A stretch of DNA of 41,685 nt, from IMG/VR virus record IMGVR_UViG_3300026473_000779, positions 1-41,685 of that record; one strand, given 5' to 3'. This DNA is from a virus. Positions within the stretch are counted from its first letter, which is position 1. The number at the start of each line of letters is the position of its first letter. Of the stretch, positions 1 to 18,608 are shown piece by piece. Made by a program: the position numbers and the translations under genes. Below the pieces are notes generated by a model that saw nothing but the letters and a program-made list of their open reading frames with translations, had not been told where the DNA came from and made no database searches.

Positions 1-1110
1 ATGAAAAGTCCAAAAGACACTGATCACGAAAAACCAAATTCGAAACGAATTGAAGTTGAATTGCTCGACTTTGATCCGGAAAACCCACGCTTTCCGCCAG
101 AGATTGCGAGCGGTCCAATTGAACAACTGGTTGAGCGTTTTGTCCGCGATGAACGCCTTCTTGAAATTGTCACGTCTATTGCCGATCAAGGGTACTTCGA
201 AGGTGAGCCTCTCCTTGTCACGAAGAACAATGGAAGATTTCATGTCATTGAAGGGAATCGGCGTCTGGCCGCGCTCAAACTTTTGAACCGGCAAGTCGAT
301 GTACCGGAGGGGCGCCCCTCTATTGATGAAGTGGTCGAGAATGCAAAGAACCGTCCCCAAGAAGTCCCTTGCCTGGTTTTCTCAGAAAGCCCCCAAGTGT
401 TGCGTTACTTGGGATTTCGGCATATCACGGGGATCAAGTCTTGGAGTTCTCTGCAGAAGGCTAGGTATCTCAAACGCTTAAAAACTACCTTCTACCAAGA
501 AATGACAGGAAAAGACCTGCTTGTTCGATTAGCTAGAGAGATTGGAAGTCGATCCGATTACGTCGGCCAAATGCTCGCTTCCCTTAACGTCTACGAGCAT
601 GCCGAAAAACAAGGGTTCTATAAAGTCAAAGGCCTCAATCCTGAGGAGATTGATTTTTCTGTTTTGGGAACTGCATTGTCTTACTCGAGCATTGCAGAAT
701 TCACAGGCTTGGATGGCCGCCAAGATATGGAGGGGGTTAACCTCTCCGATGAGAATTTAAAAAATCTGCTCTCGTGGATGTTCGTTGCTAGAAGTAACCA
801 AAAATCCATCTTGGGGGACTCCAGAAATCTCAAAAAGCTCGCCGCAGTGGTTGAGTCGAAGGATGCGATCAATATTTTGGTTAAAGAAGGCAATCTGGAT
901 AGCGCGTATCAACTCAGCAAGGGGCCTGCCCAAGCTCTCAACCTTGCATTGAAAAACATAGAAAAAAGGCTGAAAGACGCTTGGGATTGGATGCCGTTGA
1001 TAGATAGCCCTGAACCCGGTGACGATGAGCGCGCCGACGGTATTCGCAAATTGGCACATCAACTCAGAGACGCGATCCGCTCTAAAAATGCAGAGCACGA
1101 AGATGATTGA
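1..1110 (+). CDS. ParB/Srx-fold protein, probable partner of the downstream nuclease
   Basis: This 369-residue protein has a ParB N-terminal-like domain in about residues 16-95, ending in the motif EGNRRLAALKLL (84-95), which matches the GxRRxxA nucleotide-binding motif of ParB/Srx proteins. The rest (about 130-369) is helical with no match I recognise. ParB-fold domains bind DNA and hydrolyse CTP or ATP in several families, and many stand-alone copies occur in mobile-element defence loci instead of partition loci; no parA is seen here. The stop codon overlaps the start of the next gene, so the two are translationally coupled. Base composition is more AT-rich than the phage genes to the right, which suggests separate acquisition. 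The fold assignment is fairly secure; the role as a specificity or regulatory subunit for the next gene is inference. The gene begins at the first base of the window, so its upstream signals are not visible. Confidence 0.72.
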   Translation: MKSPKDTDHEKPNSKRIEVELLDFDPENPRFPPEIASGPIEQLVERFVRDERLLEIVTSIADQGYFEGEPLLVTKNNGRFHVIEGNRRLAALKLLNRQVDVPEGRPSIDEVVENAKNRPQEVPCLVFSESPQVLRYLGFRHITGIKSWSSLQKARYLKRLKTTFYQEMTGKDLLVRLAREIGSRSDYVGQMLASLNVYEHAEKQGFYKVKGLNPEEIDFSVLGTALSYSSIAEFTGLDGRQDMEGVNLSDENLKNLLSWMFVARSNQKSILGDSRNLKKLAAVVESKDAINILVKEGNLDSAYQLSKGPAQALNLALKNIEKRLKDAWDWMPLIDSPEPGDDERADGIRKLAHQLRDAIRSKNAEHEDD

Positions 1111-2122
1111 CCAAGTGCTCAAAAACTTGACGAATCCACCAAAAGCGGGAAGCCATGAACTGTACCGGTGGTGCGATTACATTGAACTTCGTTGCCTCAC
1201 ACACAAGGACCATCGGTTTTCGCGTGACGGACTGGTTGAGTCGATTGCTGAAAACGCTGATACAAATTCAGATGATTCTCTGATCGATCAGGAAGAAGAC
1301 GAACTGGATGAGCCGACAGCCACAATCAGCGAGACTGATGCTGCAATCGTCAATGACAAGCACGAACAACATTCCGCAAATTGCTTCAAACACTTGCGCT
1401 GGAGAGAAAAAGCTTTTTCAGAATGCTGGCCTTTCACTCTCGACGAACATGCTTTTGAAATTCGCATCAAACCCGAATTGACTGAAATACAGCGCTTTTA
1501 CCTCTCCCTGCTGCTGTCTGCATCGCTCAGCTATGTTCCCAAAAAACGGTGGCGAGGACTGACGGGACTACTTGAAAAGGCGTCTACCGAAATTATGAAG
1601 CGTTTGATGCCAAATGGCGCTGAAGTTCATCCTTTTGGCGCAGCAGAAACCAAGCGCTATACAGGACACCTGTTTGATCGCTTGACCAAATTGGCAAATG
1701 ATGTTCGTGGCTCACTCGAATTAAAAAAACACCACTTTGCAGAGCATGATTCGGGAGACAGCGGATTGGATGTGGTTGCTTGGCATGGACTTGGCGATGA
1801 ACGCAAGGGAATTCCTATTGCCTTTGCACAATGTGGATGTACTGCGTCCGGTTGGCCTAACAAGATGCTTGAGGCATCCCCGGCCAGGCTTGCAGGACAC
1901 CTAAATACATTCCATGAATGGGCTACCTACTATTTCATGCCGCTAGACCTCTCTACAGAAGTTGACGATGTGATGGACTGGCAGATGTTTTCTGACTTCA
2001 GTCGCGCAATTGTCATTGACCGCATGCGATTCGTGCGATTGACATTGGCCTACGACATCCCTCCCGCACCAATAACCGCATACGAATACGTCAATGAAGC
2101 ACACGCTTTACAGCTAAGTTAG
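1103..2122 (+). CDS. putative PD-(D/E)XK-like restriction nuclease
   Basis: The ATG at 1103 overlaps the stop of the preceding ParB-like gene by eight bases, giving 339 residues; an in-frame ATG at 1088 is an alternative. The N-terminal part has an acidic linker near residues 57-72. The C-terminal half contains GLDVVAW (D223) followed by a beta-strand ending in AFAQCG (Q243) and then a lysine near 254. This D...QC...K layout resembles a variant PD-(D/E)XK nuclease core that I associate with uncharacterised putative restriction proteins of the form GxDxVAW...GQCxxGxxWxxK. I do not recognise a named family beyond that. With a ParB-like partner and a C5 methyltransferase next door, a restriction-type role is reasonable, but nuclease activity is inference from a motif seen by eye. 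Confidence 0.55.
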   Translation: MIDQVLKNLTNPPKAGSHELYRWCDYIELRCLTHKDHRFSRDGLVESIAENADTNSDDSLIDQEEDELDEPTATISETDAAIVNDKHEQHSANCFKHLRWREKAFSECWPFTLDEHAFEIRIKPELTEIQRFYLSLLLSASLSYVPKKRWRGLTGLLEKASTEIMKRLMPNGAEVHPFGAAETKRYTGHLFDRLTKLANDVRGSLELKKHHFAEHDSGDSGLDVVAWHGLGDERKGIPIAFAQCGCTASGWPNKMLEASPARLAGHLNTFHEWATYYFMPLDLSTEVDDVMDWQMFSDFSRAIVIDRMRFVRLTLAYDIPPAPITAYEYVNEAHALQLS

Positions 2123-2147
2123 GTGCGACCGTACCAACAACACGCTT

Positions 2148-2175
2148 TCGCTGAGGCCAGCTATAGCCTCAGCGA
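2148..2175. terminator. hairpin between convergent genes
   Basis: A perfect 10-bp inverted repeat (TCGCTGAGGC and GCCTCAGCGA) with an 8-base loop lies in the 80-bp gap between the nuclease-like gene and the convergent methyltransferase. Its position fits a bidirectional terminator. There is no run of T on either side, so it would be a weak intrinsic terminator at best, or an mRNA 3'-end stabilising stem. Confidence 0.45.
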
Positions 2176-2202
2176 GTCAACTTCGAGGGGTATCGGGAAC
2201 AA

Positions 2203-3159
2203 TCATCCCCACACGTTGGGCAAGGCTTTCACCACGGCCTCAAACAGTGGGGGCGGTACCGCATTGCCGGCCACCTTGTAGCGCATGTCGAGGCTACCGG
2301 CGAGCGTGTCCGGAAACACGAAATCATTGGAAAACCCCTGTAGGCGTGCAGCCTCTCGGTAGCTAAAGCGACGTGCAGGAGCATCACTCTCAAATGACCA
2401 GACGTTATGCTCCAGCTTTTTGAGGGCAGGGCTCATGGGGTGCAGCGGCATGTGACGCGGGTTGGCCACGATGGTTTTGGAGACCTCATGCCAGTCGCGG
2501 CGGCGGTTACGGCTGAGGTAGTACCAGTGGAAGTCGCGCGCATAGAACTCACCCTCGGGCCAAGCTGGCAAGTCGGCAATGGCTTGCTCAATGGTCTTGT
2601 GCGGGTTGTCCCTGCCAAGACCATGGGTAGGCAGAGGGAACTGGTATTCGAGTCCCAAATCTTCTCGCACCCCGACGATGAAGATGCGCTTGCGCTCTTG
2701 GGCCACCCCATAATCCATGGCGTTGAGCACTTCGGCCTTAACTTTGTATCCCGCCTCAGCAAACACCTTGAACTGGTCTTGAAGCAGGTGAGCAAAGTTT
2801 TGGCGCACCATGCCTGATACGTTCTCCACTACAAAGGCCTTGGGCCGGATGGTGCGCAGGGCCCGAGCGAACTCTAGGTACAGGGTGTTGATTTTGGCCG
2901 AAGGCTTTCTGACACCGCCCTGGCTGAATCCCTGGCAGGGATAACAGCCCACCAATAACTCCGCTTTGGGAAAGGTTTCGATCTTGGCAATGTCCTTGAC
3001 TACGTAATCGGTCTCTGGGTGATTGGCCAAATAAACGTCCCGCGCATAGGACAGCTTGTCATTGGCCATGACCACTTCAAAACCGGCAGCAACAACTCCA
3101 GCGTCACTGCCGCCGCAGCCTGAAAACAGGGAAACCGCCTTCACGGTTGAACCCCACAT
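2203..3159 (-). CDS. C5-cytosine DNA methyltransferase (Dcm-like)
   Basis: This 318-residue protein shows the ordered motifs of C5 DNA methyltransferases: motif I FSGCGG near residues 12-17, motif IV GCYPCQGFSQGG with the catalytic cysteine of PCQ, motif VI VVENVSGM, motif VIII QERKRIFIVGV, and motif X AGNAVPPPLFEAV near the C-terminus. It transfers a methyl group from SAM to carbon 5 of cytosine in a specific DNA sequence. The target recognition region between motifs VIII and IX is short, as in small phage or restriction-associated enzymes. It faces the ParB-like/nuclease pair convergently and could protect DNA from that nuclease, or could be an orphan phage enzyme. Its enzyme class is secure; its target and pairing are not known. 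Confidence 0.93.
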   Translation of the reverse strand: MWGSTVKAVSLFSGCGGSDAGVVAAGFEVVMANDKLSYARDVYLANHPETDYVVKDIAKIETFPKAELLVGCYPCQGFSQGGVRKPSAKINTLYLEFARALRTIRPKAFVVENVSGMVRQNFAHLLQDQFKVFAEAGYKVKAEVLNAMDYGVAQERKRIFIVGVREDLGLEYQFPLPTHGLGRDNPHKTIEQAIADLPAWPEGEFYARDFHWYYLSRNRRRDWHEVSKTIVANPRHMPLHPMSPALKKLEHNVWSFESDAPARRFSYREAARLQGFSNDFVFPDTLAGSLDMRYKVAGNAVPPPLFEAVVKALPNVWG

Positions 3160-3245: not shown

Positions 3246-3689
3246 TCATATGTCCGCAATGGCCTGGAATTTGGCATGCTGCTCACTCCACAGGCTCGGG
3301 ATGGTGTGTTTGGTGAACCAGTGCAAGTTCAGCCCCTTGGGCTGGGTGCCTTGAAGGATGCTGTCGATGATTTTGGGATCCAGCAGCGTCAAGCGCATGC
3401 ATTCGTTGACCGTAGCCTGATCCAGGCCCTCCTGCCGGGCAATTTCAACGCCACTGCGGACGATGCCCTCGTCGATGAGCCGCTGCCAGTAAAAGGCCCG
3501 TGTGAGCCCTTCAACCAGTTTGGTGTCCGGTAGCTGGGCGTGGTCTTTGATCACCTGGGCGACGTTTTCCGGGGGCTCAACAACGCTGCGCCCGCCGCGT
3601 TTGACGAACTTCAGTGGGATGAACGTGCTGAACTCCAAGTGATTCGAGGTGGTGGCCACGCTGTTGCCCACCGACTGTGCGTTATTCAT
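3246..3689 (-). CDS. KorB-like helix-turn-helix protein of the recombinase operon
   Basis: This 147-residue protein has a central segment, GVEIARQEGLDQATVNECMR, that reads as a helix-turn-helix like those of ParB/KorB proteins. The flanking text (VEGLTRAFYWQRLIDEG before, LTLLDPKIIDSILQG after) also resembles the HTH regions found beside serine recombinases in proteobacterial islands. Its ATG overlaps the recombinase stop as ATGA, with a GGAG ribosome site inside the recombinase gene, so it is co-translated. A DNA-binding accessory or regulatory role in recombination is likely by context; it has not been assigned a function that I know of. Confidence 0.65.
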   Translation of the reverse strand: MNNAQSVGNSVATTSNHLEFSTFIPLKFVKRGGRSVVEPPENVAQVIKDHAQLPDTKLVEGLTRAFYWQRLIDEGIVRSGVEIARQEGLDQATVNECMRLTLLDPKIIDSILQGTQPKGLNLHWFTKHTIPSLWSEQHAKFQAIADI

Positions 3690-5047
3690 GCGATCTCCAA
3701 TTCACGCAGGTCATATTCCAGTTGTTCATATCCGGCCAGGTTCTTGGGCGGAAGGCCGATCAGTGCGCCCCAGGCCTCAAATCGCCAGTCCACATGCAGG
3801 CCTTCTGGGGCGACGGTGATGCGTTTGATCAGCGTGCGCACGATGTCCTGTTTGGCTTGCGTGGCCAACTGGTCCCATATGCCAGCCGTGTTTTTGAAGA
3901 AAAGCACCATGGCCTCAGGTTCGGTCAACTTGGGGTTGAGGCTGCACACCTGCTCCCAGCATTTGTGGACCATCTGACCGGAGCGCAAGACCTCGAGCAC
4001 CTTCTCCATCACGGATTTCTCGATGCCTGCTGCTGGCAGATTGGCAAATTCCACGGTGCCAGCCCCCATCTTTTGGTTCTTGTTGACCACGTAGTAGCGG
4101 TACAGCTTGCCGCTGGTCTTGCGGGTGGCCATCGGCAGGTAGAGGTCCCCATCGGCCGTGAACATCATTCCGCGCAACAAAAAGCCGTGCCTGCATTTCT
4201 GACCGAAGGTGTCGCGAGCCCGGTCCCGGCTGTTTTGGGCCATGATTTCTTGCACGCGGTCCCATTGCGACTGGTCTATCAGGGCCTCGTGTTGGCCTGG
4301 GTAAAAGTCGCCCTTGTGTCCAATATCGCCGATGTACAGGCGGTTGTGGAGGATGGTGTAGAGAGCCTGCTTGCTCAGAGGCTTGCCGTTCTTGCTCGTG
4401 ACGCCTTGCTCTACGAGCTGCTTGACCATGAGGGTGGTTGAGCGTGTTGCAACAAACGAGTCAAAGATTTGCCTCACCACCTCGGCCTCCTCTGGCGCCA
4501 CCACCAACTTTCGGTTGTCCACGCAGTAGCCCATCGGCACTTGTCCGCCCATCCACATGCCTTTGCGCTTGGAGGCGGCGAATTTGTCGCGAATGCGCTC
4601 GCCAGTCACCTCGCGCTCAAATTGCGCAAAAGATAGCAGGACGTTGAGCATCAGGCGTCCCATGGACGTGGCCGAATTGATCTGCTGGGTGACCGAACTG
4701 AAGCTGGCCTTGTACCGATCAAAGAGCTGAATCATCTTGGCAAAGTCAGCCAGTGACCGTGAAAGCCGGTCGATCTTGTAGACCACCACGATGTCGATCT
4801 TGCCGTCCTGAATGTCTTGCAACAGGCGCTTGAGCCCTGGGCGATCCATATTGCCGCCGGTGAAGCCGGGGTCTTCGTAGTGGTCTTCGACTTGCTCCCA
4901 GCCCTCGGCGCGCTGACTGGCGATGAATGCTGCACCAGCTTCACGCTGCGCATCAATGGAGTTGAAGGTTTGATCCAGCCGTTCGTCCGAAGAGACGCGG
5001 CAATACACCGCGCAGCGCTTGGGAGTGACTTGTTGCGCTTCGCTCAT
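3686..5047 (-). CDS. large serine recombinase (probable phage integrase)
   Basis: This 453-residue protein has a resolvase/invertase catalytic domain at about residues 10-160. The nucleophile is the serine of YCRVS (S19), and the arginine-rich active-site motif is YKIDRLSRS (90-98). A recombinase domain follows at about 170-270 and then a C-terminal DNA-binding region. The usual cysteine pairs of the zinc ribbon after LLRG are absent (LLRGMMFTADGD), so this belongs to a subfamily without a classical zinc ribbon. The start at 5047 is preferred because it overlaps the previous stop as ATGA and follows AAGAAGG; an upstream in-frame start at 5089 is less likely. Such enzymes join attP and attB through serine-linked double-strand breaks. 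It is the only recombinase in the window, so it is the best integrase candidate. Confidence 0.88.
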   Translation of the reverse strand: MSEAQQVTPKRCAVYCRVSSDERLDQTFNSIDAQREAGAAFIASQRAEGWEQVEDHYEDPGFTGGNMDRPGLKRLLQDIQDGKIDIVVVYKIDRLSRSLADFAKMIQLFDRYKASFSSVTQQINSATSMGRLMLNVLLSFAQFEREVTGERIRDKFAASKRKGMWMGGQVPMGYCVDNRKLVVAPEEAEVVRQIFDSFVATRSTTLMVKQLVEQGVTSKNGKPLSKQALYTILHNRLYIGDIGHKGDFYPGQHEALIDQSQWDRVQEIMAQNSRDRARDTFGQKCRHGFLLRGMMFTADGDLYLPMATRKTSGKLYRYYVVNKNQKMGAGTVEFANLPAAGIEKSVMEKVLEVLRSGQMVHKCWEQVCSLNPKLTEPEAMVLFFKNTAGIWDQLATQAKQDIVRTLIKRITVAPEGLHVDWRFEAWGALIGLPPKNLAGYEQLEYDLRELEIA

Positions 5048-5514
5048 GCCTTCTTGCCTTTCAGTCCAAAGAAAGCGGGGCCGGACCATTGGGTGCCCGT
5101 GATTAACTTGGCAATGGCCGACAAGCTCTTGTACCGCTGGCCGTCGAATTCATAGCCACCCGTGGGGAGCACCGTGACCTTGTACTTTTGGCCATCAAAT
5201 TCACGCAAGAGCGTGGTGCCCGGGAGCAAGGTCCGGGTGGTTGGTGCAGCGGTCTTGATTTTCGAGAACCGGGCGCCGTAATCAGCCAGCATGTCGCGGG
5301 TGCCACTGGGCAGGGCGCCATAGGCTTGCTCTTGCAGCTTGTAGATCAAGCGCGATTCGATGTGTGTGCGATTGGGCCGGGCCGGGCGGTGCACAAAGAA
5401 TTGATCCCACAGGGCCCAGAGCTCGGGCATTTTCATGTTCGGGAGCGCGTGGAGTTGTTCGGATATTTGGCCGGTGCGCAGGATGTCGCGCATCGGCGGG
5501 ACGGTGTTTTTCAA
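5044..5514 (-). CDS. DUF2924 family protein
   Basis: The 156-residue product matches the DUF2924 pattern that is often found immediately upstream of serine recombinases in proteobacterial islands. It has an N-terminal segment with MPELWALWDQFF and SRLIYKLQEQAYG, then a C-terminal beta-rich part with LLREFDGQKYKVTVLPTGGY and YKSLSAIAKLITGTQWSGPAFFG. The start is a TTG at 5514 overlapping the previous stop; an ATG at 5493 is a credible alternative. It overlaps the recombinase start by four bases. DUF2924 has no proven biochemical role that I know of. Constant linkage to a recombinase suggests a directionality or accessory factor, which is inference. Confidence 0.82.
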   Translation of the reverse strand: MKNTVPPMRDILRTGQISEQLHALPNMKMPELWALWDQFFVHRPARPNRTHIESRLIYKLQEQAYGALPSGTRDMLADYGARFSKIKTAAPTTRTLLPGTTLLREFDGQKYKVTVLPTGGYEFDGQRYKSLSAIAKLITGTQWSGPAFFGLKGKKA

Positions 5515-5741
5515 GGCTGTGACTCCATGTGGGTAGACGGGTTTGCATTGACGCTCTGGTAGGCATGGAAGTCGAGGAACTTGTCTCGATCAGTCGCATA
5601 TACCCAACTGCTGTGCGCCTGCGTAAGGGCCTGGTGTTGATCGACGACCGCCTGTGCGATCAGGTGCGCGATTTGCGAGAGGGAGAGGTACCCACTTTTC
5701 TCAGCCGGGTTGCCTTGGACTGGGGTTTGAAAGTGGTTCAT
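5511..5741 (-). CDS. small first gene of the recombinase operon, unknown function
   Basis: A 76-residue reading frame starting at ATG 5741 ends in a stop that overlaps the DUF2924 start by four bases, like the other junctions of this operon. The sequence contains an amphipathic stretch (LSLSQIAHLIAQAVVDQHQAL) and no recognised domain. The frame extends upstream to 5843 with unconvincing sequence. The coupling argues that it is real; the function is unknown. It lies where a recombination directionality factor might be encoded, but nothing in the sequence proves that. Confidence 0.5.
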   Translation of the reverse strand: MNHFQTPVQGNPAEKSGYLSLSQIAHLIAQAVVDQHQALTQAHSSWVYATDRDKFLDFHAYQSVNANPSTHMESQP

Positions 5742-5906
5742 CGAGGTGCTTTGATTGATCAAATCTGACCTCGGAAATCGTAGCCAAAACACCCAAATTC
5801 GAGTCGTTGTTTTAGAGGCCCAGCAACGAGCTTGAGAGCACAAACCCGCATGAATACTGGCTTTTTCTGAAACCTCCCAGCAACCATGCGGCCTGGAGCG
5901 ACGGTT

Positions 5907-5941
5907 TTGACAGATTTCCGAAAAGCTGTATATTTATCCAG
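5907..5941 (+). promoter_or_regulatory. sigma70 promoter overlapped by a LexA-type SOS box
   Basis: TTGACA (5907-5912) and TATATT (5929-5934) are separated by 16 bases, a near-consensus promoter reading right. CTGTATATTTATCCAG at 5926-5941 overlaps the -10 element and matches the LexA consensus CTGT-N8-ACAG with one mismatch in the right half-site. The next gene starts 90 bases downstream. The rest of the 5742-6031 gap shows no gene. The match to the SOS consensus is direct; DNA-damage induction of the operon is inferred. Confidence 0.68.
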
Positions 5942-6031
5942 CAATCCGGCGAAAACCAACATAAGCCCCAGGACGAAGGACCAGGGGTTCAGACGCCTCA
6001 TTGCCCAACGAAAAACAACAAGGAGATATTC

Positions 6032-7273
6032 GTGAGCCGAAACCAAACCTACGCCGACATCTTGCTGAGCCTGCCCGTCGACGAAACCCTCAAAACCTTC
6101 ATCGAGCGCCACGCCTTGCCCATGCCAGAGGGCTGGACATGGAACGACACGGTCCAGACCTCAAGACGCTTGATCGGGCTGATTCAGGCGCATCCCGTGG
6201 TGGCCATGCGTGACCGCATAGTGGCGGGGCTGCATGCCAGCACGCTGCTGGCCCACACGCTGGGCAAACAGGCCATGTTCCAGGCCGCCCATGACCGACC
6301 TGCCGAACTGGTGGGCCTCATTGCCTGCAAGAACGACCTGCACCGAGCCTTCTGGCTGTACGTTCACCACCCGGCACTGTTCGAGGCTGCAGCGGAAATC
6401 GAATACCTCGACCACCATGGCCAGCAAGCCCAACAGCACGACCTGGGCCTCAAGCGGGCCATCAAGCGTGATGATGTGTCGATCGCTGCATTCGGTGATG
6501 CCATCAAAGGCTTCTACCAGCGGGAGCTGGGGTGCGGGGAGGTGTGCGTGGTCAATGTGCTGGACCGGGCGCGCGGCACGCAGCTGATCTCCATCCATGC
6601 CAAGGACCTGGCCACGGCCAAGTTGGAGTTCGAGGGCAGCCAGTTGCAGCGGCGGGTGGGCAGTCCGAACATTCACATGGTGCTCGAGTACGCCCAGGCC
6701 ACCGGTGTGGCTCGCACCATTATTCGTGGTGGGGCCAAGTACCACGCCATGCTGTGTGAGGTGTTTGCAAGACACTTGCTTGGCGTGGATGCCGATGCCC
6801 AGCGGATTCAGACGCCACGCCTGAACCTGTCTACGCTGCGCTTGGGGCTGAACATCCCGCAGGCCATCGATGACGGATTCGTTGGCCTGCAGGTCAAGAG
6901 CGTGACCGTGGTCAGCGGTTGCGGGCAGCTCAAGATGGAGTGCACGGCCAGTGCCGCCAGCGATCAGCGCTGCGTCACGGACCTGCTGCAGGACTACTTC
7001 GGCGCAGAAAACCCGCTTGCACGCGGCTGGACCATCCAGGCAGCGGTGCTCAACTTCTATCTGGCACCGATGCAAGGCAAGAGCCGCTGTCAGGTGGTCA
7101 GTGTGGAGATCACCAGCAAGGGGCGACTGAACCTGCACAAGTTCGATGAGAAGCTGCGTGCGCAGTTGGAGGGTTACTTGGTTGAGCTGGGCATCCTGAA
7201 GGCGCAGCAGGTCCTCAAACCCGACCGAGAGCAGGAACAGCCCCAGGCAGTGGCTGCCAGCTTGTTTGAGTGA
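6032..7273 (+). CDS. unknown protein, first gene of the SOS-box operon
   Basis: The start is GTG at 6032, preceded by a strong AAGGAG ribosome site; the product is 413 residues. I do not recognise the family. It is largely soluble, with no signal peptide or membrane segment, and appears mixed alpha/beta. Histidine-rich spots occur (EYLDHHGQQAQQHD near residue 130) and the C-terminal third (about 270-390) is predicted beta-rich. There is no Walker, HNH or PD-(D/E)XK motif that I can defend. The next gene follows after seven bases, so the two form an operon under the LexA-type promoter. Composition resembles the host-like phage genes, not the AT-rich cargo further right. Function is unknown; the SOS control and recombinase neighbour suggest a role in DNA damage response, excision or defence. 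Confidence 0.82.
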   Translation: MSRNQTYADILLSLPVDETLKTFIERHALPMPEGWTWNDTVQTSRRLIGLIQAHPVVAMRDRIVAGLHASTLLAHTLGKQAMFQAAHDRPAELVGLIACKNDLHRAFWLYVHHPALFEAAAEIEYLDHHGQQAQQHDLGLKRAIKRDDVSIAAFGDAIKGFYQRELGCGEVCVVNVLDRARGTQLISIHAKDLATAKLEFEGSQLQRRVGSPNIHMVLEYAQATGVARTIIRGGAKYHAMLCEVFARHLLGVDADAQRIQTPRLNLSTLRLGLNIPQAIDDGFVGLQVKSVTVVSGCGQLKMECTASAASDQRCVTDLLQDYFGAENPLARGWTIQAAVLNFYLAPMQGKSRCQVVSVEITSKGRLNLHKFDEKLRAQLEGYLVELGILKAQQVLKPDREQEQPQAVAASLFE

Positions 7274-7280
7274 GGTGTGA

Positions 7281-8237
7281 ATGGAGTTGACACCCAATCA
7301 GCAAGCCATCGGCTTGGCGGCTTTGATGTTTCTGCGGGGCAGTGCATCCTTTGAGAGCAGCCTGCACGATGAAGAAAAAGCTGCGCTGCAGCTTCTCAAG
7401 CAAGCAAAGGCCGTGGTGGCTGGTGCGGCCAATAGCCGGAATGCGGAATGCGCTTTCTGTGGCCTGTACCGTGGTCCGATTTTCAGGAGCGATGAAGGAC
7501 TCATGGTGCAATGCCCGGACTGTGGGCCGTTTGCGCTGGATCCGGCCAGTCAGCGCAGTTGGCGGCTGGACGACGAGTGGTTGATCCGCAAGCTGCGCGG
7601 CGCACTGGATATTTCGCCGCACGCAACGACCACTCAGATCGTCGATAGCGTGTGGGACATTGGGCGGTACAAGAAGCGGCCGGTGGTGCTGGCTCGCCGT
7701 ATCGACCTGGTGGAACGCCATGGACTGCGGATTTTTCATGGACCTCAGCCACGCAGCCAAAGCTGGGTGATCACGCCACGGCCCTTAGTGCGGTCTCCAC
7801 TGGAGCCGCTGGCCGGGACGGCGACGTGGTGGCAATTGGAAGACCGGTTTGCCTTACATGGCCTAGCACTGCGCCTGCTTGACCCGGACCAAGGTGAAGG
7901 AGCCGACGACATGCAAGACAACATCCCTGGCGTGGCTGTCCATGGGCCGTTCAGTGAAGACTTCGCATGGGTGCATTTGGATGGCTGGCTGCATGGTCCC
8001 ATTCGTTTGAGCGATGCTCAGGCGCATCTGTTCGCGGTACTCTGGAAGCATCGTAATCAGGCACAGTCTGCGGAGTTTCTAATGCGGGAAGCAGGGCTGG
8101 TCAGTGAGCGTCCGATAGATGTTTTCAAGGTGAAGGCTGCCAACCGTGGTGATTATCGGTATGAGGGGCCATTGCACGCATATGAAAAACTGGTTAGGCG
8201 TCAGCGCCGTCAAGGGTTGTATCGATTAGCCTTGTGA
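7281..8237 (+). CDS. zinc-ribbon unknown protein, second gene of the SOS-box operon
   Basis: The 318-residue product starts at ATG 7281, seven bases after the preceding stop and after a GAG-rich leader. It carries two CxxC pairs, CAFC (57-60) and CPDC (78-81), spaced as in a zinc ribbon. The remainder has no recognised domain, although the C-terminal 100 residues (about HLDGWLHGPIRLSDAQAHLF onward) look like a winged-helix fold typical of DNA-binding proteins. It is probably co-transcribed with the 6032 gene. A DNA- or RNA-binding role is a reasonable inference from the ribbon and possible winged helix; the partner and target are unknown. Confidence 0.78.
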   Translation: MELTPNQQAIGLAALMFLRGSASFESSLHDEEKAALQLLKQAKAVVAGAANSRNAECAFCGLYRGPIFRSDEGLMVQCPDCGPFALDPASQRSWRLDDEWLIRKLRGALDISPHATTTQIVDSVWDIGRYKKRPVVLARRIDLVERHGLRIFHGPQPRSQSWVITPRPLVRSPLEPLAGTATWWQLEDRFALHGLALRLLDPDQGEGADDMQDNIPGVAVHGPFSEDFAWVHLDGWLHGPIRLSDAQAHLFAVLWKHRNQAQSAEFLMREAGLVSERPIDVFKVKAANRGDYRYEGPLHAYEKLVRRQRRQGLYRLAL

Positions 8238-8403: not shown

Positions 8404-8478
8404 CCTGCAGAGAATGGCCATTGAGGTTGATACCGAATAGCTCCATGCGTGGCAAGAAATTTTTGGAATGAAAGAGGC

Positions 8479-9645
8479 ATGAGCGAAAACCGTACAACTA
8501 TCCGGAATGGTCGCTTTGTCGCTGCACATTGGTTGCAGCGCTCAGCCGAAGGCTTTCTGGCATGGTCAAAAGCGTCAGGAGAGGCGGAAAGGAGAGCGTC
8601 TACGATGGGCAAAGCCATTGCTCGTGTGGCGGACCCATCGTGGTATCACGGCCTACCTGGCGCGGTAGCTCGAAGTCTTCCGGACGTGTTCAGAAATTGC
8701 GATGCGCTGTCCTTCTCTCATATGTCTGAGGCCGTTGCTTACGCAGGCGTGCATCTGCTAGACCGGTATGGGCGCGTAATGCAGGTGCTCGAATATCTCA
8801 TGGTGAACGGGAGGCTACCTCTTAGAAAAGTGGGCCTCAAGGTCTTGGAGGTCGGCTCCGGACCTGCGCCGGCACTCTATGCTGTGCATGACTTCTATTC
8901 CATACTTCGAGATTGGCCTGGCCGGGGCAGCACTGAGATTTCGGAAATCAAGTATGCGGATTCATTAGAACGTGGTGAGGCCTGGGACTCAATCCTTCAC
9001 CATGTCTCGGAGCAGTTGATGGTGATACGAGGAAAAAAACAAGGTGCAATCGGCCTTCCGTTTCGGCGCTCAATTGATGACTTATCCGGCTTCGACCCTC
9101 AACGACGGCACCAGGAGGCAATTGCTCAGCATGCCAGAAAAATTCTCAGCGACTTTAAGTCGGCAGACGAGCCTATTTCTTCAAAGTCTGCATTCAGAAT
9201 AGCGTATCAGGATGGAGGCAGTGCCCCCTCCGCGTATGACCTAATCTTCATGTGCAACTTCTTGACTCAACCATCAATGACGCAGCACTACAGAACGGAA
9301 TTGCAAAATCTTGCAAAATCGCTAACGCCTGGTGGCGTACTAGTAGTTATTGGCGCAACCGGTAAACAATATCCAGAGATCTACAAGGAAGTTTTTGATA
9401 TCGCTTCTGGAGCTCGGCTGACCAACATTAGCCCAGCCAACGTTTTCAATGCGAACCTCAGCCCACACCTAAACATCGTGCGCGAACACATACGAAATAA
9501 CGTCGCGGCAGCACTCGTTGATTGCTCTGAAAAAGAGCAGCAAGATATCTGTTCGAGGCTACCAGAGGACCTCTGGAACTCAAACGTTGATTTCGTGCTT
9601 CCTAAATACCAAGCACTTGTCTTTTGCATGCAAAAGAGGCCTTGA
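8479..9645 (+). CDS. class I SAM-dependent methyltransferase-like protein
   Basis: The ATG at 8479 follows GAAAGAGG and is preferred to an upstream GTG at 8449; the product is 388 residues. Residues 122-135 (VLEVGSGPAPALYA) form a SAM-binding motif I. A later strand with acidic end (AYDLIFMCNFLTQPS) and LTPGGVLVVIG match motifs IV and VI of Rossmann-fold methyltransferases. The DPPY or PCQ motifs of DNA methyltransferases are absent, so the substrate is not DNA by any familiar signature. It is more AT-rich than the phage core and sits 57 bases before an Mrr-type nuclease gene, so the pair may form one functional unit. Enzyme class is likely; substrate is unknown. Confidence 0.68.
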   Translation: MSENRTTIRNGRFVAAHWLQRSAEGFLAWSKASGEAERRASTMGKAIARVADPSWYHGLPGAVARSLPDVFRNCDALSFSHMSEAVAYAGVHLLDRYGRVMQVLEYLMVNGRLPLRKVGLKVLEVGSGPAPALYAVHDFYSILRDWPGRGSTEISEIKYADSLERGEAWDSILHHVSEQLMVIRGKKQGAIGLPFRRSIDDLSGFDPQRRHQEAIAQHARKILSDFKSADEPISSKSAFRIAYQDGGSAPSAYDLIFMCNFLTQPSMTQHYRTELQNLAKSLTPGGVLVVIGATGKQYPEIYKEVFDIASGARLTNISPANVFNANLSPHLNIVREHIRNNVAAALVDCSEKEQQDICSRLPEDLWNSNVDFVLPKYQALVFCMQKRP

Positions 9646-9702
9646 TCAGACGATTTGATCGGCAGCTGATATCCTTTAAAACTATAAATAAAGAAATCGC
9701 AA

Positions 9703-10713
9703 ATGGGTAGCATTGTCTTTGGACCAAAAGTTTTGCCAGACAACCTGACCGAAATCGCCGGCTATAAAGGTGGCCTCGCGATGTCGCTTGAGGAAATCTG
9801 CGACCATTTGACCGGCACTTCGTTCCCAGACGTCGTCCGTGATGGTGAGACATCGGGAGTTCGGTTGAGGTCAGAAGAGTATGAAGATCTTTACTACAAC
9901 CTACTTTACCGAATCGGGTATACGAAAGATCTGTATCTCGGGCCCAGCGTTGAGCAAGCGAGATTATTTCATCGCTTCAAAGCTAACGCTGTTGAACTCG
10001 ACGTCTACATGCAAATCAGTGCGACGATGAGTCACTTTATGAGGAACGGAATTCCAAATGGTGAGTCTAAGACGACTGACCTTAGTGCGATCTTGGCTGA
10101 AGTTAAGAGGGTCTTCGGGGACACTGGTGTCAAGATCGGAATTGAGATGTACGAGATCATCAATCGGGGAATTCGAATGAATCCTCATTGGGGCATCGGC
10201 AACGAATGGATCAACCCTCTTAAGCTTAAGGGGCTGTTCAAAGGAACAGACCAACAACCTGAGAAGGGGCGGTTCATTGATCAGCGATACATCGATTACC
10301 TGTCGAACAACCATGATCGCATTGGCGAAATGCACTGGCGGCAATTTGAAAAACTTACTGCCGAGTTTTACGCGCGAGATGGTTATAAAGTTGATCTTGG
10401 TCCCGGCAGCAATGATGATGGTGTCGATGTCCGTGTGTGGAAACCTGACGCGAATTCGGAGGATAGCCCATTGTGCATTGTTCAATGCAAGAGACAGAAG
10501 AACAAAATCGAAAAAGTCGTTGTCAAGGGCCTTCACGCAGACGTTCAATTTGAGCGGGCGGATTACGGCGTAATCGTCACAACGTCAGAGCTAAGCCCCG
10601 GAGCTAAGACGACGATATCTGCACGTGGCTATGACATCCAAACCGTTGAAAGAGACGGCGTCAAAGGCTGGCTAACGAAACTTCGAACGCCTGGAACCGG
10701 TATCGTCCGATAG
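9703..10713 (+). CDS. Mrr-type restriction endonuclease
   Basis: The 336-residue protein has an N-terminal domain of unknown type (about 1-200) and a C-terminal Mrr_cat PD-(D/E)XK domain (about 207-325). The domain opens with MHWRQFEKLTAEFYARDGY, has the catalytic aspartate in NDDGVDVRVW (D242), the QxK motif as IVQCKRQ (Q261, K263), and the late strand YGVIVTTSELSPGA. Mrr-family enzymes cut foreign, often methylated, DNA. The ATG at 9703 has only a weak purine-rich leader. It is probably co-expressed with the methyltransferase-like gene upstream. The nuclease fold is secure; whether cleavage depends on DNA modification is unknown. Confidence 0.88.
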   Translation: MGSIVFGPKVLPDNLTEIAGYKGGLAMSLEEICDHLTGTSFPDVVRDGETSGVRLRSEEYEDLYYNLLYRIGYTKDLYLGPSVEQARLFHRFKANAVELDVYMQISATMSHFMRNGIPNGESKTTDLSAILAEVKRVFGDTGVKIGIEMYEIINRGIRMNPHWGIGNEWINPLKLKGLFKGTDQQPEKGRFIDQRYIDYLSNNHDRIGEMHWRQFEKLTAEFYARDGYKVDLGPGSNDDGVDVRVWKPDANSEDSPLCIVQCKRQKNKIEKVVVKGLHADVQFERADYGVIVTTSELSPGAKTTISARGYDIQTVERDGVKGWLTKLRTPGTGIVR

Positions 10714-11151
10714 CATTAAACTGACGGATCATATAGAGAGATGACCGGTAGCTTCTAGCCGAAATTTGTTGGACATTCTTAGTTGGCGGGCAGCTGCTAG
10801 TAGCCTTGAGAAGACATTGGTCGCTATCCAAGTAGTGATTTCCGAGGGGATGGGGTCGTTATTTACTAAGTGGCCGATGCCCGGTATCGGCCTTGGAGCG
10901 GTCACTGAAGAGTGTCGGTTCAATGGCGACCGGATTTCAACTTGGCTTATTTTCTTTGCCGGTGATTCCGGCGTTACGCGAGTCCCATCGACTCGCTCAA
11001 GTCTAAGATGCGAACTGAGGACCGGGCGATTCACTGTGAGCGTTCGAGAGGGCCGGCAGAGCTGACCCTGCTGGCCTGCCAAGGCCGTTCAGTCCCGGTC
11101 TTTACGCACGAAAATTCTTATGTACGTAACGAGCTCGCCAAGGAGGTCACC
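10714..11151. other. gene-free gap with hairpins
   Basis: No credible gene lies in these 438 bases between the Mrr-type gene and the KAP NTPase. Two perfect inverted repeats are visible: GGCCGAT/ATCGGCC at 10872-10892 with a 7-base loop, and GCGAGT/ACTCGC at 10978-10996 with a 7-base loop. A shorter GCCGG/CCGGC stem precedes the second. Neither is followed by a T run. The region must hold the promoter of the KAP gene, but I see no convincing -35/-10 pair. Confidence 0.4.
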
Positions 11152-13449
11152 ATGAGGGAATGGTTAAACCGTATCATCGGCAGGCAGGCGGTATCCGAGC
11201 CTGACGAAATGTCGTCGGCTGGTGTTGCAGTGGACGCAGTAGCGACACCTGCTCAACCCAGGGCTGAGCACTTCGTTTCAGATGAACCGATCACCGGAGC
11301 AGCCCAGGATCGCTTCAACCGCGCGCCCTTTGCTATCCGCGTTGCAGACACTATCGCGCGCCGCCCCGATAGCGCCAGCCTAGTTGTGGGCGTATTCGGC
11401 CCGTGGGGGGACGGCAAAACCTCGGTGCTGAAGATGATGGAGGAAGAACTGGAGCTGCACGACAACGTGGTCGTGCTACGGTTCAATCCTTGGCATTTCC
11501 AGAGCGAGGAGCAGTTGATACGCGGCTTCTTCGCTACGCTCGCCGAAGGGCTGGATCAAAAGCTCAACACCACCCAGGAGAAGATCGGCAAGATTCTGAA
11601 GGATTACGGCTCTTTACTGTCGCTGGGCTCTTTCGCTGTAGCCGGCGGGGCCATCCAACTCCGTCCGGGTGACGCCGCCAAGGGCCTTGGCGAGGCGCTG
11701 TCAAACGTCAGCCTGGATGAGCTGCGATCACGCATCGATGCCATCCTCGCCGCCAGCGGCAAGCGGGTGGTGGTGCTGGTCGATGACATCGACCGGCTCG
11801 ATCGGGCCGAAACGCACTCGATGTTCAAGCTGGTCAAGCTTTCGGCTGGTTTCAACCACACCGCCTACGTGCTGGCCTTCGACGACGAGGTCGTGGCCGC
11901 TGCACTTGGCGAAAGATATGGTGATGGCGGCAAGCAGGCGGGCCGCGCCTTCCTCGAAAAGATCATCCAAGTGCCGCTGCACCTGCCGCCGGTCGACGAA
12001 GTGGCACTGCGCCAGGTGGCGTTCGAAGGCGCGCAGGCTGCGGTTGACATGGCGGGCATCCAGGTCCCACAGCCCGATGTCGATGCCTTCATGCGCCACT
12101 TCGTGGATGGCCTGGAGCGCAAGCTCACGACACCTCGCGTGGCCAAGCTATACACAAATGCCCTAATGTTCGCGCTGCCATTGCTTAAGGGCGAGGTAAA
12201 CACGATGAACCTGATGCTGATTGAGGGCATCCGGGTGCTGTACCCCGCCCTATATGCAGCCATCCGCGACAACCCGAGCATTTTCCTCATTGGACGGGAG
12301 CGCGCGCTCCACGGTCTTGAACTGGCCCGCAACCGGCTGGACGAGGTAGTCGATGCGGCCTTGCCGGAGTGCACACCCGGGGACCGCGAAGCGATCAGGA
12401 CGGGCCTGCTGAAGCCGCTCTTCCCGCGCACCGGCAACACAATCTACGACCATAAATGGGACACGGTGTGGGCACGTGAGCAGAAAATTTGCTCAGAGCC
12501 CTATTTCAAGCGCTATTTCACGTACTGCGTGCCCGACGGCGACGTCGCCGACGCGAGCATTGCCGAGCTGCTTGATCGACTGCCTACGGACAATGATACG
12601 GTTAAGCGCGAACGGCTCGCGCAATTCGAGAGTCGCCGGTCGATGCCGCGGCTGATCTCCGCATTGCGCCAACGCGTGGACGGCATGGACGCCGACTGTG
12701 CGGTGGCGTTAGCCCGCGCCATCGCGCTGTCCGGAGACCTGATGGTGCGTGAGCGCGGTCAGATAATGGTTACGACCTTCAATCAAGCGGGCATCCTGGT
12801 TGCCGCTGCCATTCGGCAGCTGCCCGGCCGCGAACGGCGGTGGACTGCCGTTGAGGATATTCTGCAATCCGCCATGCCGCTGGACTTTGCGGTCGAGTGC
12901 GCACGCTGGATTTACTTCAATGCGGAGCGGGCAGAGAACGACAACATCGTTCAAGAGGCCGACAACGACCGCATTGATGGCCTCCTGGCCCAACGCATCG
13001 CTGCTGCAGACCAGGTGCAGCCAATCTACAGGCAGTTTCCCAAGGAGACAGCAAGCCTCTATTTCCTCTGGAATCGGGCCGTGCCTGGTGCGCCGGGCGA
13101 ATCGCTGCGGCGGAGGTTCGCTGAAGCACCTGCTGAGTTGGACTCGTTCATCGATTGTTTCGTCGGGGAGGGTTGGGAGATCGAAAGCGGACTCCCAGTG
13201 CGCAGCGATTTGCGGCGGGATAGCTATAACGCGATAGTTCAACTGATCGAGGAGAATTACATAATGGTCAACTTGCGAGCGCGCTATGGCGAAGAGCTGA
13301 ACACGCCTCTCAACTATCCGCCGCGCGAGTGGCCACATGCGCGCAAGTTCGCGCACCAGTTCGCCGCAATACACGCCCTCGTGGCGCAGGAGGCTGTAGC
13401 GGTACCTGAGACGAAGCCACCTACCGACGACGATCCACAGCCAGTCTGA
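11152..13449 (+). CDS. KAP-family P-loop NTPase
   Basis: The ATG at 11152 is chosen because AAGGAGG lies seven bases upstream; the frame is open further left without good signals. The 765-residue product has Walker A GPWGDGKTS (83-91), the KAP hallmark VLRFNPWHFQ (108-117), and Walker B VVVLVDDIDRLDR (206-218). I find no clear pair of transmembrane helices inside the NTPase domain, so this is probably the soluble type; the VVV and LLSLGSFAVAGGA stretches are the only hydrophobic segments. KAP NTPases occur as defence proteins, for example QatA of the QatABCD system, but no qatB, qatC or qatD is adjacent. Its solitary position suggests a single-gene or partner-distant defence role, which is inference. 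Confidence 0.88.
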   Translation: MREWLNRIIGRQAVSEPDEMSSAGVAVDAVATPAQPRAEHFVSDEPITGAAQDRFNRAPFAIRVADTIARRPDSASLVVGVFGPWGDGKTSVLKMMEEELELHDNVVVLRFNPWHFQSEEQLIRGFFATLAEGLDQKLNTTQEKIGKILKDYGSLLSLGSFAVAGGAIQLRPGDAAKGLGEALSNVSLDELRSRIDAILAASGKRVVVLVDDIDRLDRAETHSMFKLVKLSAGFNHTAYVLAFDDEVVAAALGERYGDGGKQAGRAFLEKIIQVPLHLPPVDEVALRQVAFEGAQAAVDMAGIQVPQPDVDAFMRHFVDGLERKLTTPRVAKLYTNALMFALPLLKGEVNTMNLMLIEGIRVLYPALYAAIRDNPSIFLIGRERALHGLELARNRLDEVVDAALPECTPGDREAIRTGLLKPLFPRTGNTIYDHKWDTVWAREQKICSEPYFKRYFTYCVPDGDVADASIAELLDRLPTDNDTVKRERLAQFESRRSMPRLISALRQRVDGMDADCAVALARAIALSGDLMVRERGQIMVTTFNQAGILVAAAIRQLPGRERRWTAVEDILQSAMPLDFAVECARWIYFNAERAENDNIVQEADNDRIDGLLAQRIAAADQVQPIYRQFPKETASLYFLWNRAVPGAPGESLRRRFAEAPAELDSFIDCFVGEGWEIESGLPVRSDLRRDSYNAIVQLIEENYIMVNLRARYGEELNTPLNYPPREWPHARKFAHQFAAIHALVAQEAVAVPETKPPTDDDPQPV

Positions 13450-13967
13450 GATCTTTCGGTGCCGAGCGTCATAGGCCTGTGACCATCGCTCGAGATCGCT
13501 ACGATTGTTGTTACCTGGAAGGTGAGAGCCTCCTCAGCACACTGCGTGCAAAATTTCCCTGATACCTAGTTACGTCAGCGCATCCCAGGGGATTCTTCTC
13601 GCGAAAAGTTCGCAGCTGCTGCTCGTCGATGCGGGTCCCAGGGAACTGGTTTTGGCACTGTGCTCGAAGGCCACACCGCCCATACGAACGATGCGAGCAG
13701 AGTTACTCCGTGTAGCATCACCCAGGAATTAGGTTTTTCGATACTGCAGGTGTGCCTATGTTTCCGATCAGGGCAACTCACGGGGAGAAGGTTCGATGGT
13801 CAGGTCCGGAGCGGCAAGATCCAGGCCGCATATGTCTCTTCATCGGATGAAAGTAGGCGACTGCCCTCAATCAGCCTTTTCAGACCTGTTGACACTCCTC
13901 GGTGCTTTGTTGCTTATTTAATCCTGATGGGGTTTGCTAAGGGAATGGTCTGAGCGTCGGAGACGCA
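13450..13967. other. gene-free gap between convergent genes
   Basis: This stretch of 518 bases lies between the KAP NTPase stop and the end of a minus-strand gene. Open frames in it are short, lack ribosome sites and have odd composition, so I call no gene. I see no T-rich terminator hairpin, tRNA-like cloverleaf or long repeat. It may be a junction scar between independently acquired cargo segments. Confidence 0.35.
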
Positions 13968-14693
13968 TTAATGCTGTTTGGGCAGTACGTCTCGCCAGCC
14001 TCCGACCTTCGGCTCGGAATACCCCAGACTGATCAATAGACGCATGGTTTGGATGATGTTTTTGACCGCATACCCCTGAACTTCAGGATCTGGATCGCCA
14101 ATTTCTACCGGTAGGGCGTTCTCCCAGCCTGTAAAGGCAGGCCAAGGTAGCAGCTTTTGAGTGCCGTTTTGGTGTTCAACACGAACCCAGACCTGGGAAT
14201 CCGGAGAAACGAGCACTGCGATGGAAGTGTGCTTGGCGGATTGCCATGGCCATGGAGAGTTGGTCGGCCTATGGACCGGAGCGCGTGCGGAAAGTGAAAT
14301 GGCTTGTCTGTATCGCGTAATCCGTTGCTGCGCATCCTGTTTAGCAATGGCTTTTTGTTCGGAAAGACGTTGTTGCTGTTGGCCAAGGCGGGCCAGCTCC
14401 TGTTCCTCGAAATATGCGATCAAGGCGGCAGTATTGGCTTCGAGCAATGCCCGTTCTTGGTCAGTCAGTCTTCTGCCATCGCCAGTTCCGTGCACCGAAC
14501 TGCCCAGTGCCTTGGCGCCGCCGTACCTCTTTGCAAAGCAGCTAGATCCCAAGACTAGAAACTTACCTGCCTCTTGAACAATATGAACCGCCGCGTATAC
14601 CTTGTGGCCGCAGCCGGTATGTTGGCAGCGCACTGCATGAGCAGCATCGATCGCGATGATCGCGTGTAACCGTGCAGGTGGATATTCATTCAT
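13968..14693 (-). CDS. zinc-binding protein of unknown function
   Basis: The product is 241 residues from the ATG at 14693; a GTG two codons upstream is also possible. The N-terminal 60 residues carry CQHTGCGHK and later GSSCFAKRYGG, which look like metal ligands of a small treble-clef-like zinc site. A long coiled-coil follows at about 75-125 (QERALLEANTAALIAYFEEQ onward, rich in Q, E and K). The C-terminal part has PWPWQSAKHTSIAVLV and ends without a signal. I do not recognise a named family, though such proteins are seen on mobile elements. It is the last gene of the minus-strand block after the toxin-antitoxin pair, about 77 bases away. Confidence 0.68.
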   Translation of the reverse strand: MNEYPPARLHAIIAIDAAHAVRCQHTGCGHKVYAAVHIVQEAGKFLVLGSSCFAKRYGGAKALGSSVHGTGDGRRLTDQERALLEANTAALIAYFEEQELARLGQQQQRLSEQKAIAKQDAQQRITRYRQAISLSARAPVHRPTNSPWPWQSAKHTSIAVLVSPDSQVWVRVEHQNGTQKLLPWPAFTGWENALPVEIGDPDPEVQGYAVKNIIQTMRLLISLGYSEPKVGGWRDVLPKQH

Positions 14694-14770
14694 ATGCACA
14701 AGGCCCAGCAGATTGCAGGAAAGTCTTGGATTCTCAGATGATGTGGATGCCTCATCGCAGCAATACGCAA

Positions 14771-15529
14771 TTAAGACCGCAACTGTTGAACGACCCTTAC
14801 TTCATAGTCGTTGATCAATTTCTTGAAGTACTTGTAAATCTCATCCATCTTCACTTTCAGATGGATGCTGGAAAACCCCTCGTCGTCTTTGTCCAGTGCG
14901 ATCACACCGGTGACCACACTCTTGAAGTACTCGGGATCTTTGTTTCTGATGGGCTGGTAGGCATCGATGGCCGTAAAGATATCGTCAAGGGTATAGCCAT
15001 GGTCTCTCGTGAGGACCATCAAGTCGTAGATGTCACGAGACTTCACACGGTCATAGACGACGATGCTTTTCATGACAAGAAGCCCATCGATGCCCAGCAC
15101 ATCAAAGCCACCCTTGGAAACCACCACCTTGGGAGCTGACTTCAGGAAATCAATCTGCGCCTTGGGGCGATCACCTTCATTGCGGGAATGAAACGTCACC
15201 TTGGCACCATCGATCAGGTAGTCCTGAATGTAGTGGTCCAGATTCTCTGACGTATTGATTTTGAAGCCCAGCTTTTGTTCAGAGGTGATCAGGCTTTCAA
15301 TCGTGGCACCACCGGCAGCCAATTCATCCAGAAGCCCATCGATGGCTCTGATGGGCAATTTCTGACCAAAGATATTGAAGTCCAGGTCTTCGCTGATCCG
15401 GTGTCCTATTTGCAATGCCAAGGCCGTGCCGCCGACTAAGGTAAAGCCAGCCAGTCTGGGGTTGTCCTTGAGTCGTGCGAAGTTCTTTTGCGTCGCCTCT
15501 GGCATGAATTCCAGCTTGAGCTTATGCAT
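14771..15529 (-). CDS. AbiEii/AbiGii-family nucleotidyltransferase toxin
   Basis: This 252-residue protein has the AbiEii signature LVGGTALALQIGHRISEDLD at residues 31-50, comprising the GGTAL nucleotide-binding motif and the DLDF-type metal-binding aspartates. A later KSRDIYDL motif around the middle is also typical. AbiEii-type toxins are nucleotidyltransferases, some of which add nucleotides to tRNA 3' ends, and act in type IV toxin-antitoxin and phage abortive infection systems. The ATG at 15529 follows CAGGAA and overlaps the antitoxin stop by eight bases; an in-frame GTG at 15550 is an alternative. Together with the gene upstream it forms a coupled bicistron. Confidence 0.88.
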   Translation of the reverse strand: MHKLKLEFMPEATQKNFARLKDNPRLAGFTLVGGTALALQIGHRISEDLDFNIFGQKLPIRAIDGLLDELAAGGATIESLITSEQKLGFKINTSENLDHYIQDYLIDGAKVTFHSRNEGDRPKAQIDFLKSAPKVVVSKGGFDVLGIDGLLVMKSIVVYDRVKSRDIYDLMVLTRDHGYTLDDIFTAIDAYQPIRNKDPEYFKSVVTGVIALDKDDEGFSSIHLKVKMDEIYKYFKKLINDYEVRVVQQLRS

Positions 15530-16508: not shown

Positions 16509-16793
16509 ATGCTGCTTGCAACACCAGCACTCGAGGCGCCAGTCTTCCTGAGCGCCACTTCCCCTGAATCCACCATGCCCAAGCAGCTGGTGCTGACCGA
16601 GGCTGACCTGGCCTCCCGATGGGCCATGAGCCCCAAAACCCTGCAGCGCTGGCGTATGACTGGCACTGGGCCGACGTATCTCAAGCTGGGTAAACGGGTG
16701 AGCTACCCCCTCAACGCTGTGATTGCCTTCGAGAACTGCGTCCAGCATGTCTCGACTTCCAAGCGTATCCCCGGGAAGGCAGGTGCGGCATGA
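16509..16793 (+). CDS. small MerR/AlpA-like helix-turn-helix protein
   Basis: The ATG at 16509 follows AAAGGAG, giving 94 residues. Residues 28-75 (LVLTEADLASRWAMSPKTLQ, then RWRMTGTGPTYLKLGKRVSY) match the helix-turn-helix of excisionase/AlpA-type proteins, where the arginine-lysine-valine-tyrosine strand forms the wing. Such proteins act as excisionases or early transcription regulators. It is the first rightward gene after the divergent antitoxin and leads the replication module, with the next start overlapping its stop. Whether it serves the serine recombinase or controls early genes cannot be told. Confidence 0.78.
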   Translation: MLLATPALEAPVFLSATSPESTMPKQLVLTEADLASRWAMSPKTLQRWRMTGTGPTYLKLGKRVSYPLNAVIAFENCVQHVSTSKRIPGKAGAA

Positions 16794-18060: not shown

Positions 18061-18072
18061 TGGCGGCTGTGC

Positions 18073-18495: not shown

Positions 18496-18498
18496 AGA

Positions 18499-18549: not shown

Positions 18550-18608
18550 ATTCCAACTTCTACCAACCAATGCGGGTGAACCAGATCACCTGCAGGGGAG
18601 ACTATTTC

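Follow-up and report, generated by a model that had tools for sequence, protein, structure and literature searches.

A virus record of IMG/VR (IMGVR_UViG_3300026473_000779, positions 1-41,685, one strand, 5' to 3') carries at positions 5907-8237 a two-gene operon, here g1-g2, which lies beside a serine recombinase gene, and the locus raises the question of what the two proteins do and whether DNA damage controls them. An earlier note, made from the sequence alone, had proposed that the pair is under SOS control and that it could govern excision, DNA protection or a damage-triggered abortive response. In what follows, the window is the whole stretch of 41,685 nucleotides that was analyzed.

Promoter and genes of the g1-g2 operon

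The promoter, the LexA-like box that overlaps it with one mismatch, the leader of approximately 90 bases (read from the sequence), the AAGGAG site and both reading frames were all recovered as the earlier note had described them:

5907-5934, + strand: sigma-70-type promoter (TTGACA at 5907-5912, TATATT at 5929-5934, 16-base spacer); TTGACA and the spacing are kept in relatives
5926-5941, overlapping the -10 element: LexA (SOS)-type box CTGTATATTTATCCAG, one mismatch to CTGT-N8-ACAG, assigned on a comparative basis
6020-6025, + strand: ribosome-binding site AAGGAG, 6 bases 5' of the GTG start, assigned from the sequence
6032-7273, + strand: g1, GTG start at 6032, 413 residues, predicted RdgC/CENP-N/TBP-like fold, phrog_37634
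7281-8237, + strand: g2, 318 residues, four-cysteine zinc ribbon (CxxC...CxxCG) and predicted C-terminal winged helix

Judged from this single sequence, the box does not exceed chance expectation. Sites with one mismatch to CTGT-N8-ACAG number 6 in the whole window against 16 expected, and since the window is not enriched in them, the single-sequence argument for the box is weak.

Conservation of the LexA-type box

Close relatives of g1 were taken from IMG/VR and from GTDB genomes. Those in which g1 is at least 71% identical (clade A; Limnohabitans, Hylemonella and other Comamonadaceae) provided 37 promoters, 25 of them non-redundant; L. parvus II-B4 has a relative at 96%. Across these 25, the 16-mer of the box is 98% conserved, being identical in 19 and carrying an invariant CTGT half-site in all 25, as compared to 61% for the 20 bases upstream and 65% for the 35 bases downstream. 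In four Limnohabitans genomes, the lexA promoters carry CTGTATTTTTAACCAG and an adjacent CTGG-type site with the same CCAG/CTGG half-site, which indicates that a CCAG half-site is normal for the LexA of this host. Limnohabitans sp. JirII-31 has the 16-mer of the window, CTGTATATTTATCCAG, unchanged upstream of its umuDC genes, and L. radicicola has CTGTATATACATACAG upstream of its own. The two features by which a LexA regulon member is recognized on sequence, a conserved LexA-type box and agreement with the boxes of the likely host, are therefore both present, and damage (SOS) control of g1-g2 in the lineage of the window, as the earlier note had read it, is strongly supported by this comparison, with LexA as the putative binding protein. 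When the regions upstream of the wider family were scanned for GTTC-N7-GTTC, the alphaproteobacterial LexA motif, 1 of 40 had it, which is not above chance. As a side observation, the umuDC genes of Limnohabitans sp. JirII-31 with the identical SOS 16-mer are located only approximately 4.4 kb from g1 (locus L089, around 5474; the same as L176).

Linkage of g1-g2 to a serine recombinase module

Four genes on the opposite strand precede the operon:

5511-5843, - strand: p110, a small clade-A protein divergent from g1, with homologues only next to clade-A g1
5044-5514, - strand: DUF2924 protein (RAMA-like), module member (PF11149, E 2e-41; RAMA, E 2e-4); start derived from the open reading frame
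3686-5089, - strand: large serine recombinase (PF00239, E 2e-38; PF07508, E 4e-17); start derived from the open reading frame
3246-3689, - strand: p147, module member with conserved order and strand; start derived from the open reading frame

The recombinase carries both the Resolvase and the Recombinase domains that characterize large serine recombinases, with a weak match to the zinc-ribbon domain that is usual in such enzymes (PF13408, E 0.06); the similarity of p147 to ParB-type HTH proteins is also weak and below the cut-off (E 0.06).

The earlier note had suggested looking for the pair beside DUF2924 and serine recombinase genes in other genomes, and the association was borne out from both sides. 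Of the 46 genome loci in which 9 kb or more of sequence precedes g1, 45 encode DUF2924, the serine recombinase or both divergently upstream, usually together with p147; g2 follows g1 in all 71 genome loci. For the reverse approach, 80 DUF2924 loci were collected from viral contigs; the order p147-recombinase-DUF2924 is nearly constant across them, and 70 have a g1 homologue after profile iteration, while 7 of the 10 others are fragments shorter than 10 kb. The linkage tracks the recombinase cassette even where the replication genes are on its opposite side: phage replication genes are located downstream of g2 in clade A and beyond p147 in most of the sister clade described below (clade B). To describe the pair as lying beside a serine recombinase is thus correct as to adjacency and too narrow, the unit also taking in p147, the recombinase and DUF2924 at 3246-5514 on the minus strand. 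Given this near-obligatory linkage, p147, the large serine recombinase, DUF2924, g1 and g2 appear to make up a conserved five-gene module. In these same proportions (45/46 and 70/80), g1-g2 is encoded and conserved with the cognate integrase, as a recombination directionality factor (RDF) should be.

A repressor and protease replace the box in clade B

In the sister clade, clade B, g1 is 49-62% identical and the SOS box is absent from the g1 promoters. Of 49 clade-B loci, 47 encode a divergent XRE repressor and an ImmA/IrrE (M78) protease in the interval from DUF2924 to g1, versus 0 of 17 in clade A. The earlier note had held that homologues always occurring without this promoter would speak against its reading; other clades do lack the box, but the best-sampled of them has XRE-ImmA in its place. 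Integrase genes are often constitutive and RDF genes SOS- or ImmR/ImmA-controlled; indeed, both ImmR-ImmA and SOS control xis of ICEBs1, and mitomycin induces sprB, the RDF gene of SPbeta (PMC6957869). A swap of switches ahead of one set of genes is thus as expected of an operon that starts excision.

The only two clade-B loci of the 49 without XRE-ImmA, from Ramlibacter (L093 and L095), have a CTGG-N8-CCAG palindrome just 3' of the -10 element, which as a regulatory site is suggestive only. Such a palindrome is also seen beside the -10 element upstream of g1 at locus L060.

Fused and diverged forms of the pair

In 31 of the 70 viral loci with a g1 homologue, g1 and g2 are fused into a single protein, mostly of approximately 770 residues. 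In hhalign, the g1 profile before iteration matched the N-terminal part of the fusion with a probability of 97.6 over 346 columns, and g2 matched the C-terminal part with a probability of 93.6 over 261 columns; these are single pairs of small alignments, for which E-values are rough. In the remaining class, a diverged g2 (probability 96-97.5) is encoded directly downstream of g1, and such a gene was present in 15 of the 16 loci examined. The natural fusion argues for joint action of both proteins. Of the 31 fusion genes, 16 share their strand with the recombinase and DUF2924, unlike the pair in the two betaproteobacterial clades, where inducible-type control separate from the recombinase is seen by sequence.

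Predicted structures of g1 and g2

The earlier note could name no motif in either protein, and neither g1 nor g2 has a Pfam, NCBIfam or PADLOC family match above threshold; in PADLOC, nothing was found at E values up to 1 for either of them. The family that g1 does match, phrog_37634, is one of unknown function. A tblastn search of annotated phages with g1 and g2 found none, and a search of plasmids returned one partial relative of each, on the same Eleftheria terrae plasmid.

Structure prediction, another check proposed earlier, was run on both proteins and provided weak fold matches. The AlphaFold model of g1 (pLDDT 81, pTM 0.61) matched CENP-N (E 9e-5) and E. coli RdgC (E 1.1e-4) when compared to the PDB using Foldseek, and a phage RdgC in BFVD (E 9.4e-4, probability 1.00), but TM-scores of only 0.2-0.4 make the fold similarity to RdgC weak. 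RdgC, CENP-N/L and TBP constitute one published fold group (PMC4080450). The g1 profile had no match among PDB sequences, and hhalign of g1 against the true RdgC proteins that the host genomes encode separately provided a probability below 1%. Membership of g1 in the RdgC family (PF04381) was consequently rejected, there being no Pfam match either; g1 resembles RdgC in predicted fold, and differs from it in having no sequence similarity and an extra helical N-terminal region. At most, g1 may thus share an RdgC/CENP-N/TBP-like fold, and is no RdgC by sequence.

For g2 (pLDDT 87), the four-cysteine ribbon is invariant among homologues, several of which have weak zinc-ribbon matches; the g2 profile found weak zinc-ribbon matches only among PDB sequences. 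The C-terminus matched an OmpR/PhoB-like winged helix weakly (E 0.035, probability 0.99), and g2 is thus predicted to combine a zinc ribbon and a winged helix.

Insertion sites and the candidate integrase of the elements

The distance from g2 to the 3' end of a tRNA-Phe, tRNA-Ala or tRNA-Lys gene is usually a few hundred bases in clade B, and an element-borne hairpin, GCCCAACC...GGTTGGGC, directly precedes TGGTGG, which corresponds to the CCACCA end of the tRNA. Insertion is exactly at this end in several different tRNAs, and tandem arrays occur. A Pigmentiphaga element at tRNA-Phe and a Cupriavidus cauae element at tRNA-Lys are near-identical in DNA sequence (99.9% over 25.6 kb), and the two diverge right past TGGTGG. 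Copies of tRNA-Lys are 76.1 kb apart in C. cauae versus mostly approximately 2.7 kb in the 59 other Cupriavidus genomes searched, and comparison to an empty site reveals two tandem elements of approximately 10.8 and 62.4 kb, both bounded by TGGTGG. The hairpin resembles a replacement terminator for the tRNA (L104 and L105, both at 12184-12640, and G002:C6).

A tyrosine integrase (PF00589) had no match inside the examined clade-B elements and was rejected as the true integrase. Close to its left end (G002:C6, oriented 17815-21163), the 62-kb element encodes a second serine recombinase, after which come two ParB-like genes; this recombinase is also present in G005 and G006 and absent from G007. 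The 77-kb CP059256 element has the module recombinase and lacks this second enzyme, which was rejected as the integrase on these grounds. These two absences leave the recombinase of the module as the best candidate for the integrase.

Clade A has a tRNA-Met or tmRNA gene on the side of p147, and the end sequence there is related. The attachment site of the window itself was not located, there being no tRNA gene in the record and no shared end sequence. At four loci (L118, L129, L130 and L149), a tRNA 3' half ending at the anticodon region adjoins the element end with no whole tRNA, as if the same gene had been split by another element.

Relation to known systems

A serine integrase with an inducible accessory factor is a known kind of system. 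ICEBs1 of Bacillus subtilis, whose int-xis region serves as a model for clade B, is alike in being an element at a tRNA gene with a repressor and an ImmA protease over the excision operon (PMC6957869); it differs in its tyrosine integrase and small Xis, where we find a serine recombinase and the sequence-unrelated g1-g2 pair, and it uses ImmR-ImmA, in place of which the window's own clade has a LexA box. SprA-SprB of SPbeta (PMC6957869) likewise combines a large serine recombinase with an accessory gene that is transcribed separately and stress-inducibly, but SprB is a single RDF, and partners such as DUF2924, p147, g1 and g2 are not described there. The recombinase of the window is related at the domain level to CcrA/CcrB of SCCmec; it was rejected as a CcrA, CcrB or CcrC, since its match to the NCBIfam CcrB model (E 6e-47) reaches 160 bits versus an equivalog cut-off of 900. 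Unlike SCCmec, the sister-clade elements insert at tRNA ends, and we know of no g1-g2 in the Ccr system.

Phage WO of Wolbachia shares with the module a large serine recombinase as integrase; the target of its sr1WO is a protein-coding gene (PMC9203015), not a tRNA gene. In one assembly, wStri, a DUF2924 gene adjoins a recombinase (PMC10299305). In the open literature searched (subscription papers were outside the scope), the papers on DUF2924 all concern Wolbachia, and no assignment of the module partners was seen there. The protein family, its predicted fold, the fusion and the linkage appear to be undescribed within the open literature searched.

A putative role in excision

With a probability that we put at about one half, g1-g2 is the damage-inducible accessory operon of the five-gene integration module, and acts as or within an RDF to allow excision. 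The module would belong to temperate phages and integrative elements. In the lysogen, g1-g2 would be repressed by LexA in the lineage of the window and by the divergent XRE repressor with its ImmA protease in the sister lineage; on induction, g1 with its RdgC/CENP-N-like fold and g2 with its zinc ribbon and winged helix would act jointly on the complex of attachment site and recombinase. Excision would thereby be allowed, g1-g2 being the RDF or part of one. LexA binding, physical action on the recombinase and the direction of the effect are steps that we infer.

Support comes from box conservation, the linkage, the exchange of regulators, the fusion and predicted folds of a DNA-binding type, and the location of the elements at tRNA 3' ends, the finding of an empty site and the lack of a tyrosine integrase inside were counted in its favor; the inducible promoter and the divergent layout also favor excision. 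Of the three roles first proposed, excision control fits best, considering the near-constant recombinase linkage and an XRE-ImmA switch as for xis of ICEBs1. DNA protection may be kept as a possible role in view of the RdgC-like fold predicted for g1; the abortive response did not stand, as detailed below. Several points count against excision. RDFs are usually small single proteins, whereas g1-g2 has two genes and approximately 730 residues; in the 16 same-strand fused loci, control of excision and integration is not separated; the alphaproteobacterial LexA motif is unenriched in the wider family; and g1 resembles RdgC only weakly in fold. At 16509-16793, where the early region of the phage begins, an AlpA-like protein of 94 residues is encoded that matches phrog_66 (excisionase and transcriptional regulator) and is a candidate for a competing excisionase.

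More tentatively, the five proteins could form a serine-recombinase complex, widespread in proteobacterial phages and elements, of which one lineage targets the 3' ends of several tRNA genes; the two-protein g1-g2 factor, sometimes fused, would be needed for direction, and LexA and XRE-ImmA would be interchangeable. If true, this would be a new multi-subunit way to run a large serine integrase. RDFs of these enzymes are diverse and hard to recognize, and decide the reversibility of the reaction, which matters in genome engineering. On this evidence, the entire family, whether its two parts are separate or joined, is nominated for the accessory role in a serine-integrase group common among proteobacteria. 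Tests can draw on attachment sites, on an empty site and on gene sets that are nearly complete. Nature also offers an experiment on the rewiring of damage sensing by prophages, since one operon is found behind two alternative switches, a LexA box or XRE-ImmA.

The near-universal linkage across every lineage sampled, together with the 16 fused loci that have the gene on the DUF2924/recombinase strand, would also be compatible with g1-g2 being core subunits of the recombination machine, acting in both integration and excision within a multi-protein synapse, with the promoter just setting the amount. We consider this rather unlikely: in the clade of the window and in the XRE-ImmA clade, the pair is transcribed divergently and has inducible-type control of its own, which suits a factor needed at induction only, and known large serine integrases perform integration alone.

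An early SOS-induced DNA function, such as RdgC-like RecA modulation or the protection or replication of the excised genome, would explain the fold similarity of g1 to RdgC/CENP-N in two libraries and the damage-inducible-type promoter, the recombinase linkage then coming from a shared early/lysogeny region. This is improbable, since g1 lacks a sequence relationship to RdgC and the linkage follows the recombinase cassette wherever the replication genes lie. It is very improbable that the two proteins are a transcription regulator pair, an activator or antirepressor turning on other early or late phage genes: the zinc ribbon and OmpR/PhoB-like winged helix of g2 and the damage-inducible-type control would suit this, but the linkage is to the recombinase and not to one phage regulatory region, and g1 exceeds the usual size of phage regulators and is predicted to fold differently. 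Lastly, although several defence-like genes are nearby (Mrr-type protein, PifA-like KAP ATPase, AbiE pair), a damage-triggered abortive or defence pair can hardly be reconciled with the lack of a PADLOC or Pfam match for g1 and g2 and with a strict recombinase linkage across many elements whatever their cargo.

Defence-like cargo flanks the module on both sides in the window (1-3159 and 8449-16319), and includes:

1-1110: ParB-like PD-Lambda-5_A relative
2203-3159: DNA cytosine methylase
9703-10713: Mrr-type protein
11008-13449: PifA-like KAP ATPase
14771-16319: AbiE-like pair
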